A stretch of DNA of 64,000 nt from positions 29,718-93,717 of the forward strand of contig CAJBRT010000190.1 in assembly GCA_903958045.1 (NCBI GenBank). Reading direction: 5' to 3'. The DNA is from an uncultured Bacteroidota bacterium (GTDB lineage Bacteria > Bacteroidota > Bacteroidia > Chitinophagales > Chitinophagaceae). Made by a program: the position numbers and the translations under genes. This document shows positions 37,272 through 43,286 of this stretch, piece after piece (position 1 is the first letter of the stretch; the number at the start of each line of letters is the position of its first letter). The notes under the pieces are model-generated. The model made no database searches and was not told the DNA's origin. It saw only the letters and a program-made list of their open reading frames with translations.

Positions 37272-37811
37272 AAGATTGAAATTACAAGAAGCAATTGATT
37301 TTTTGTTATCTAATTTTTTTATAAAAATTGTGTGTTAATAATTACCGTAATAATAGATTTAATACTTTTTTATTTAAATAAACTATTACTATTACGGGTG
37401 TTAATACCTTAATAACCTTCTTGTACACATACGTATATTTTTAGTGTTCACTTGTTATACAACTTTATACACAGGTTTATAAACAGTTTTAAACGATGTA
37501 ATATTGATTTATTAACTAATTTTTTAATTTTTTTTTCAGTTTATTAAATGATAATTTTTTTAGTATCCACTAGTTGTATACTGTTAATTAACTGGGTGTA
37601 AAATGAGTTTATTTTAGCCTAATACCCTCTAAAGCCACTAAACCTCCTTACTTGTTCTAGTTCTGTTCACATATTTTTTGTAAAAAAGGGCGGTTTTCCA
37701 CCTAAAATACTACTTATTAACCCCTAGTTTGTGGATAGAAATAAGGCCGCAATACCTTATTTTTGCCCTCCGGCAATTTGCCGCTCATTTTATTTATTAT
37801 AATTCGTTTTT
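37272..37811. other. AT-rich intergenic region, candidate replication origin (oriC)
   Basis: This 540-bp gap between divergent genes holds no coding frame. It contains an exact DnaA-box pattern TTATACACA at 37465-37473, one-mismatch copies TTGTACACA (37421-37429) and CTATCCACA (minus, 37738-37730), and two-mismatch copies at 37455-37463, 37563-37571, 37663-37671 and 37694-37702. The stretch 37501-37560 is almost pure A/T and could be the unwinding element. GTGTTAATA is repeated at 37332 and 37398, CCGTAATA/TATTACGG are inverted at 37345 and 37390, and GTTAATTAAC (37583-37592) is a palindrome. The dominant gene strand changes here and a parS site is 3.6 kb away. dnaA is not adjacent. Confidence 0.45.
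37758..37765 (+). promoter_or_regulatory. -7 promoter element (TATTTTTG) of ppiD
   Basis: An exact TAnnTTTG match, 46 nt upstream of the ppiD ATG. Confidence 0.55.
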
Positions 37812-40877: not shown

Positions 40878-41306
40878 ATGCAAAAAGTAAACTTCCAAAA
40901 GGCCGACGCCGCCCTTACCCTGCCTGCTAAAACAGAGCTGAAAGCGTTTATTGAAAACCTATTTAAAAAGGAAAAGACCCAGCTTGCTGCTATTAATTAT
41001 ATTTTTTGCTCCGACAAATACCTGTTGTCTATTAACCAGCAGTTTTTGAACCACGATTATTACACTGATATTATCACTTTTGGACTACACGACAAGGGCG
41101 CCCCCGTTGTAGCAGAGGTTTATATTAGTGTAGACAGAGTGAAGGATAACGCAAAAACCCACGGAGTAACGTTTACCAATGAAATGCTCAGGGTTCTTTT
41201 TCATGGAGCCCTACATTTATGTGGTTACAAGGATAAGAGCAAGGCTGACATTTTGAAGATGCGCGCCAAAGAGGATGCTTACCTTGTTCGCTATACAAAA
41301 AAGTAG
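40878..41306 (+). CDS. ybeY: Endoribonuclease YbeY (16S rRNA 3'-end maturation factor)
   Basis: A 142-residue metalloprotein with the YbeY core LFHGALHLCGYKDKSKADI. Metal ligands H109 and H113 are present. The third position, His in E. coli (GYDH), is D119 here (GYKD). The upstream conserved segments INQQFLNHDYYTDIITFGL and VAEVYISVDRVKDNA are intact. In characterised bacteria it processes rRNA and helps ribosome quality control. It ends 39 nt before the parS site. Confidence 0.92.
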   Translation: MQKVNFQKADAALTLPAKTELKAFIENLFKKEKTQLAAINYIFCSDKYLLSINQQFLNHDYYTDIITFGLHDKGAPVVAEVYISVDRVKDNAKTHGVTFTNEMLRVLFHGALHLCGYKDKSKADILKMRAKEDAYLVRYTKK

Positions 41307-41321
41307 GTTCCACGTGGAACG
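41306..41321. promoter_or_regulatory. parS-like near-copy
   Basis: The centre GTTCCACGTGGAAC (41307-41320) is a perfect 14-bp palindrome. The 16-mer differs from the parS consensus TGTTCCACGTGAAACA at positions 1, 12 and 16. It starts 39 bp before the exact site, at the ybeY stop codon. Confidence 0.6.
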
Positions 41322-41344: not shown

Positions 41345-41360
41345 TGTTCCACGTGAAACA
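41345..41360. promoter_or_regulatory. parS: parS centromere site (ParB/Spo0J binding)
   Basis: TGTTCCACGTGAAACA is identical to the 16-bp bacterial parS sequence known from Bacillus and conserved across phyla. ParB loads here and spreads, and ParA/SMC then segregate the origin region. It lies in the ybeY-mnmG intergenic region. parA and parB are not in the window. Chromosomal parS sites are usually within tens of kb of oriC. Confidence 0.88.
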
Positions 41361-41417: not shown

Positions 41418-43286
41418 ATGTTTCCAGATTATGATGTTATTGTTGTAGGTGCCGGACACGCAGGTTGTGAAGCCGCAGCGGCCGCCGCCAACCTAGGTAG
41501 TAAAGTGCTCCTAGTTACTATGAATATGCAAACCATTGCTCAAATGAGTTGCAACCCTGCTATTGGTGGTATTGCCAAGGGACAGATTGTGCGCGAGATA
41601 GATGCAATGGGTGGATATACCGGACTGGTTACAGATGCAAGTACCATTCAATTTCGAATGTTGAATAGGAGCAAGGGTCCAGCTATGTGGAGCCCACGTG
41701 CGCAAAACGACCGTATGTTGTTTGCTGCCAAGTGGAGAGAGATGCTAGAAGAAACCCCCAATGTTGATTTTTACCAAGACACCGTGCAGGGGTTAATTAT
41801 AAAAGACAATAGAGCGGGTGGGGTCATTACCGGACTAGGCCACGAGATTAGATCTAAAACCGTGGTGGTTACTTCGGGAACCTTTTTAAATGGGATCATC
41901 CATATTGGTGAAAAACAATTTGGTGGTGGGCGTGTAGCGGAGAAAGCCGCAACCGGTATCACCGAGCAGTTAGTAGCACTGGGTATGGAAAGTGACCGTC
42001 TAAAAACAGGCACACCACCAAGGGTGGATGGACGTAGTTTAGACTATTCAAAAATGGAAGAACAGGCTGGGGACGAGGAAGTTGTGGGTTTCTCATACAA
42101 AGACACACCTCGCATCAAGGCCGCAGATCAGCGCAGTTGTCATATTACCTATACCAGCCAAAAGGTACACGACCTTTTAAGAAAGGGGTTTGACAGAAGC
42201 CCCATGTTTCAGGGAAGAATTGAAGGCGTAGGTCCTAGATATTGCCCAAGTATTGAAGATAAAATTAACCGCTTCGCGGATAGAGATAGACACCAGTTGT
42301 TTGTAGAACCAGAAGGCTGGAACACCGTAGAAATATACGTAAACGGGTTTTCTACCTCATTACCAGAAGAAGTTCAGTACGAAGCCCTTCGTAGTGTTCC
42401 TGGATTTGAGAATTGTCGCTTTTTTAGACCAGGTTACGCCATTGAATACGATTATTTTCAACCTACACAGTTAAAATATTCCTTAGAAACCAAGCTCATC
42501 GAAAACCTCTTTTTTGCCGGACAAATAAATGGCACAACGGGTTACGAAGAAGCGGCCTGCCAAGGTTTAATGGCCGGCATTAACGCGCACCAAAAGTCGC
42601 GCGAATTAGACCCTATTATTTTAAAAAGAAGCGAAGCTTATATCGGTGTACTCATTGATGATTTAGTAGGCAAAGGAACGGAAGAACCTTACCGTATGTT
42701 TACGTCTCGCGCAGAGTTTAGAACCCTCTTAAGACAAGACAATGCCGATATTCGTTTAACGCCATTAAGTTACCAATTGGGTCTTGCCAAACAAGATAGA
42801 ATGGACGCCGTGGAAGCGAAAAAAAATACGGTCACCGACATTAAAAATATACTCGCATCTTATAGCATTGAACCCGCAGAAATTGAAGGCTATTTCAATC
42901 AAATAAATTCGGCATCTATTACCGAAAAACAAAAAGCTTCAAAAATATTACTACGTCCAAACGTAGACCTGGTGGGCCTTTCAGCAGCTATGCCCCGTTT
43001 AAAAGAAGCCCTAGCAGGGTTTCATCCACAGGTGTTAGAGCAAGCAGAAATTCAAATAAAATACGAGCGCTACATCGAAAAAGAACAAGAAATTGCAACG
43101 CGCATGTTGCAAATGGAAAATCATATTATTCCAGAAAGTTTTAATTACGATGCTATGGCCGCACTCTCCAATGAGGCCCTGCAAAAATTCAAAAAAATTA
43201 GACCATCTACACTCGGCCAGGCCAGCAGAATTAGCGGCGTTAATCCAAGCGATATTCAGATACTCATGGTTTATATGGGCAGATAG
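41418..43286 (+). CDS. mnmG: tRNA uridine-5-carboxymethylaminomethyl modification enzyme MnmG (GidA)
   Basis: A 622-residue FAD protein that, with MnmE, modifies the wobble uridine of several tRNAs. Visible are the FAD Rossmann motif VVGAGHAGCEAAAAAANLG near the N-terminus, MSCNPAIGGIAKGQIVREIDAMGG, RCHI-like block RSCHITYT with the conserved Cys, GQINGTTGYEEAACQGLMAGINA and the C-terminal helical domain ending ASRISGVNPSDIQILMVYM. The gene is classically a neighbour of oriC in many bacteria, which fits the adjacent parS. Confidence 0.97.
   Translation: MFPDYDVIVVGAGHAGCEAAAAAANLGSKVLLVTMNMQTIAQMSCNPAIGGIAKGQIVREIDAMGGYTGLVTDASTIQFRMLNRSKGPAMWSPRAQNDRMLFAAKWREMLEETPNVDFYQDTVQGLIIKDNRAGGVITGLGHEIRSKTVVVTSGTFLNGIIHIGEKQFGGGRVAEKAATGITEQLVALGMESDRLKTGTPPRVDGRSLDYSKMEEQAGDEEVVGFSYKDTPRIKAADQRSCHITYTSQKVHDLLRKGFDRSPMFQGRIEGVGPRYCPSIEDKINRFADRDRHQLFVEPEGWNTVEIYVNGFSTSLPEEVQYEALRSVPGFENCRFFRPGYAIEYDYFQPTQLKYSLETKLIENLFFAGQINGTTGYEEAACQGLMAGINAHQKSRELDPIILKRSEAYIGVLIDDLVGKGTEEPYRMFTSRAEFRTLLRQDNADIRLTPLSYQLGLAKQDRMDAVEAKKNTVTDIKNILASYSIEPAEIEGYFNQINSASITEKQKASKILLRPNVDLVGLSAAMPRLKEALAGFHPQVLEQAEIQIKYERYIEKEQEIATRMLQMENHIIPESFNYDAMAALSNEALQKFKKIRPSTLGQASRISGVNPSDIQILMVYMGR

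Follow-up and report, generated by a model that had tools for sequence, protein, structure and literature searches.

parS is usually regarded as being among the most conserved regulatory DNA motifs of bacteria. Chromosomal parS sites of ParABS systems, which are recognised by Spo0J/ParB and follow the consensus TGTTNCACGTGNAACA, are the closest described counterpart of the locus reported here, and the two are alike in core, in dyad, in clustering and in their restriction to one locus near the origin. They differ in that our locus comprises only two sites, 39 bp apart, and in that parAB is apparently far away. The Noc binding sites (NBS) of Bacillus subtilis share the palindromic architecture of our sites, but the latter have the parS bases at positions 1 and 6 and are unscattered. 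A third point of comparison is provided by the half-parS heptamers GTTCCAC and GTTTCAC, which are bound by ParB of P. aeruginosa and some other bacteria (PMC7022226). In relatives of the species studied here, both the half-degenerate and the composite sites have kept these heptamers; in P. aeruginosa, however, they form hundreds of scattered weak sites, whereas the half-site of the relatives stands at the centromere position itself.

A parS doublet between ybeY and mnmG

The DNA analysed, referred to as the window, is a stretch of 64,000 nucleotides (contig C190, positions 29718-93717) from an assembly of 2,430,175 bases in 220 contigs (G000). An initial annotation had placed an exact 16-bp parS site between ybeY and mnmG, and our analysis confirmed both the site, TGTTCCACGTGAAACA, and the identity of its neighbours (Table 1). 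It had also judged chance occurrence of such a 16-mer in 64 kb to be very small, in agreement with the 3e-5 copies that base composition predicts. What it overlooked is that the site is not single: a second one lies 39 bp upstream, with a core (GTTCCACGTGGAAC) that forms a perfect 14-bp palindrome. In all four half-sites of the doublet, position 1 is G and position 6 is A.

Table 1. Coordinates within the window of the parS doublet, its neighbouring genes and the probable origin
Feature	Position	Strand	Details
parS site 1	41306..41321	+	GGTTCCACGTGGAACG; core 41307-41320; directly abuts the ybeY stop codon
parS site 2	41345..41360	+	TGTTCCACGTGAAACA; 14-bp core 41346-41359; mnmG starts 57 bp further on
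ybeY, left neighbour of the array	40878..41306	+	Pfam YbeY, E=3.9e-24
mnmG (gidA), right neighbour of the array	41418..43286	+	Pfam GIDA, E=8e-163
Probable replication-origin region	37272..37811	.	A+T-rich gap ending at the skew minimum; one TTATACACA box at 37465

Scanning the whole assembly for GTTNCACGTGNAAC returned two exact matches, both in the window, against an expectation of 0.11 from base composition, and the reversed control pattern had no match in the same 2.43 Mb. The sites are thus few, clustered and unscattered, as expected of parS, and even scatter over the chromosome is ruled out. Additional parS sites with one mismatch elsewhere in the assembly were considered and rejected, the three matches of this kind being at the level of the control. 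Identification of the doublet as parS is supported by its sequence, by its uniqueness in the genome and by the conservation of its position in relatives.

Position relative to the origin and to parAB

Across the window, cumulative GC skew is lowest at 37,805, which places the probable origin at 37.8 kb, 3.5 kb from the doublet. In a complete genome from the same genus (G010) the skew minimum, at ~950 kb, and the equivalent array, at 956.6 kb, are 7 kb apart (mnmG at 958.1 kb). Since skew minima adjoin parS in the window and the equivalent array in this relative, the sites are origin-proximal, and the doublet is probably close to the replication origin. To this extent the reading of the initial annotation is supported: the site marks the origin-proximal region of the chromosome, and a clean centromere annotation points to the probable origin of an uncultured species. 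The A+T-rich gap that ends at the skew minimum is flanked by divergent gamma-glutamyltranspeptidase-like and SurA/PPIase-like genes and is a candidate oriC.

Neither ParB, searched for with the family model TIGR00180, nor parA was found in the assembly. Among relatives in the genus, ParB scored above the family cut-off in 45 of 48; two of the other three genomes are <61% complete, and the third, 89% complete, has a weak match only. A 7.4-kb contig of one close relative (G019) that carries parAB matches our assembly from base 2787 of the query on, and the match starts at base 1 of contig C172. Because C172 begins exactly where parAB should lie, and because 45 of 48 relatives have ParB, we attribute the missing genes to a probable assembly gap, and true loss of ParB from this species was rejected. 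As far as can be told, then, this is not a genome without parB, a finding that the initial annotation would have taken as evidence against its reading. The annotation had further described the site as separated from its genes. The separation holds in complete relatives, where parB and mnmG are far apart (3,622.7 kb, or 3.62 Mb, versus 0.96 Mb in G010; 1.02 Mb versus 2.28 Mb in G017), but such distance is the norm in the genus; judged from these genomes, in which the distance is ~1 Mb, parAB appears to lie far from the site. In G008 and G019, the nearest relatives, ParB contains the standard motif, G-H-A-R, and by analogy the window's genome would encode a ParB of this GHAR type.

Conservation of parS at the ybeY-mnmG gap

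parS-like sites occur at ybeY-mnmG across the genus, the order and many named Bacteroidota. Genus members have one to five clustered sites in the same gap, the canonical core is present in 311 of 399 genomes of the order, and in 80 named Bacteroidota loci it is found mainly just upstream of mnmG. Flavobacteria often have one more site just beyond the mnmG coding region, and in several lineages the sites lie upstream of another gene or bracket mnmG. Copy number changes quickly, since the gap holds three canonical sites in both G008 and G019 versus two in the window, and two of the three in G019 fall within a 57-bp tandem repeat. In the literature searched, outside which lay Livny 2007, we found no description of parS variants from Bacteroidota or Chitinophaga.

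Several relatives depart from the canonical sequence or position. Among order relatives, G050 (L086) has GTTTCACGGGAAAC and a ParB with A201, G075 (L087) has two copies of GTTCCACATGGAAC and a ParB with K204, and G062 (L101) has three copies of GTTCCACGGGGAAC. The canonical core is absent from most of family f3, to which G050 belongs, and from nearly all sampled members of g26, the genus of G075. In five loci from Chitinophagaceae-like genomes (L183, L184, L186, L190 and L200), the coding sequence of mnmG itself contains a canonical core, ~381 bp from the start of the gene.

Function of the doublet and alternative explanations

We conclude that the two sites are very probably the chromosomal centromere, parS of ParABS, of a Chitinophagaceae-like bacterium, and an ordinary one; judged by sequence, their annotation is correct and routine. 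By analogy with characterised systems, ParB dimers would bind the GTTNCAC half-sites of the doublet and form closed CTP clamps, loading at this point and spreading outward from it. ParA would then draw the ParB complexes apart, so that the origin region at ~37.8 kb would be segregated first, and ParB at parS would also serve the loading of SMC-type condensin. These steps are the established mechanism of the ParABS family. The array could additionally act on the mnmG promoter.

It is also conceivable, although improbable, that the palindromes have no centromere function and are an operator at which some other protein regulates mnmG or ybeY. Their location directly upstream of mnmG, adjoining a promoter-like TATCTTTG box, would suit such a role. 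However, the core has the ParB consensus sequence, the sites form a cluster of one to five at one place per genome, near the origin and in genomes that keep ParB, and in several lineages they precede a different gene or flank mnmG on both sides. Binding by Noc instead of ParB is more improbable still. Positions 1 and 6 alone distinguish Noc sites from those of ParB (PMC7383237), but all four half-sites have the parS bases G1 and A6 where an NBS would need A1 and C6, and NBS are scattered in the genome, unlike the doublet. A chance match, for which the shortness of the motif is the sole argument, is negligibly probable and already refuted by conservation: two cores lie 39 bp apart where 0.11 are expected per genome, at a position conserved in relatives.

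Relatives with altered ParB or altered parS

With the centromere of the window thus read as ordinary parS, what is unusual in our observations concerns its relatives, and we put it forward as a hypothesis. Within one family parS is altered in three ways, namely by a drifted centre, by degeneration of one half-site, and by a composite element that is accompanied by an accessory gene.

The first departure involves ParB itself. In 24 genus members (for example G001, G015 and G025; loci L126, L128 and L144), S-L-A-K replaces G-H-A-R at residues 201-204 (Caulobacter ParB numbering). Jalal et al. (PMC7383237) give Q162, G170, K171, R173, N178, G201 and R204 as contact residues of ParB and report G201 as absolutely conserved among orthologues; GHAR ParBs of the genus have the same letters at all seven. 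The parS centre CACGTG occurs in 17 of 42 palindromes of the S-L-A-K clade, the remaining 25 having other centres (mostly CACATG, also CATGTG and CATATG), versus 28 of 30 in GHAR genus members that lack the gene designated X below (p=4e-6, with phylogeny ignored). The state of the centre switches between near-identical ParBs, as in G015 versus G025. The simplest reading of these sequences is that an S-L-A-K ParB would no longer read the central bases of parS strictly.

In the second departure, relatives without a canonical core have one to three elements of the form GTTYCAC-N8-GTTYC-N5-GRAAC in the ybeY-mnmG gap. These composite elements are 30-45 bp long, retain the parS half-site GTTYCAC and lie directly upstream of gene X, which encodes a protein of ~190-210 aa. 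The element was defined from nine genus members, and a genome-wide pattern search of 81 genomes, with as many as 2 mismatches allowed, recovered it from 11, in every case within the genus and at the ybeY-mnmG locus; X is present in 10 of these, and in the eleventh (G031) the contig ends just past the element. A profile search for X across 399 genomes of the order identified it in 31, all from one family (31/150) and representing 13 genera. Loci with both X and the element are L092-L100, L159-L162, L179, L181 and L255-L284, and two named Chitinophagaceae contigs, JACSRW010000040.1 and JANWHX010000076.1, have the same arrangement. Thirty X loci were read, and every one, including 18 of 18 outside the genus, has the element no more than ~205 bp upstream of the point where the X match begins. 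The pattern used for collection presupposes GTTYCAC, GTTYC and the GRAAC-like arm, so only the remaining positions, such as C14 (54/54), are independent evidence. Ten of the 54 elements are full or near-full 45-bp inverted repeats, and the full element may be interpreted as a parS whose two halves (GTTYCAC ... GTGRAAC) are parted at the dyad by a 31-bp inverted repeat.

Presence of X is associated with loss of the canonical core. Only 2 of 31 genomes with X have the core, versus 101 of 119 family genomes without it (p=2e-16, Fisher's test, with phylogeny ignored); put the other way, 29 of 31 and 18 of 119, respectively, lack canonical parS anywhere in the genome. The two exceptions have one core each, away from the X locus, and the composite element provides no canonical palindromic core at the locus itself. 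A single-lineage effect is argued against by the fact that the states alternate inside eight genera (g1, g34, g35, g36, g39, g48, g49 and g58). ParB is present in 26 of 26 newly tested genomes with X, and its residues 160-207 are identical between G033, which has X, and three genomes with canonical parS and no X (G027, G035 and G136). On these grounds we rejected the view that the composite elements arose from a change in the DNA-binding domain of ParB: genomes with X have kept the centromere position and have ParB, whose DNA-binding domain is unaltered. Since sister species alternate between states with a near-identical or identical ParB DNA-binding domain, they form natural pairs in which centromere evolution is directly testable. 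The proposition that genomes lacking both X and the core have no parS was likewise rejected, as most of those with a readable mnmG locus have one or two near-parS sites in the same gap, in which one half-site is typically perfect (GTTYCAC) and the other damaged.

Protein X has no match in Pfam or NCBIfam and a weak match to phrog_7030 (E 0.006). A 70-aa stretch resembles phage HNH/endonuclease VII-like proteins (tblastn, E 8e-8), from which X differs in lacking such family matches, in its D-H pair and in standing stably beside parS-like elements. In 11 aligned X proteins the H of the pair is kept in all, whereas the D is E or G in five. A search of PDB with the X profile found nothing, and AlphaFold2 run on one X sequence gave no usable model (mean pLDDT 35). 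We describe X as remotely HNH-nuclease-like.

How X and its element relate to parS can be framed in several ways. We favour functional replacement because of the origin-adjacent position, the genome-wide loss of the core and the unchanged ParB, and tentatively suggest that X and the element may constitute an alternative centromere cassette, a reading whose chances we put a little below even. Within such a cassette, X could be an adapter for the loading of ParB on split or half sites or, alternatively, a new centromere-binding protein. Possible alternatives are that X regulates its own expression through an operator that overlaps the earlier parS, which alone would leave the loss of the core unexplained, and that X was formerly a selfish nuclease that cut parS and whose presence forced the core to change. 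Taking functional replacement together with the first departure, a domesticated HNH-like X and a composite element may have replaced parS while ParB stayed unchanged, with X either helping ParB to load or acting as a second centromere-binding protein; the S-L-A-K clade would have relaxed its reading of the centre, and the species of the window would keep the ancestral canonical doublet. This combined scenario is plausible from the comparisons above, and we hold it with somewhat less than even confidence.

The surroundings of X vary. In G435, G224 and G351 the gene is inverted between ybeY and mnmG, and the element is still upstream of it. In G010 (L065/L092), X and mnmG are separated by the insertion of a small nucleotidyltransferase/HEPN-like gene pair, and genus members with X (L093-L100) often have an extra CAP/SCP-like ORF of ~200 aa between ybeY and the composite elements.
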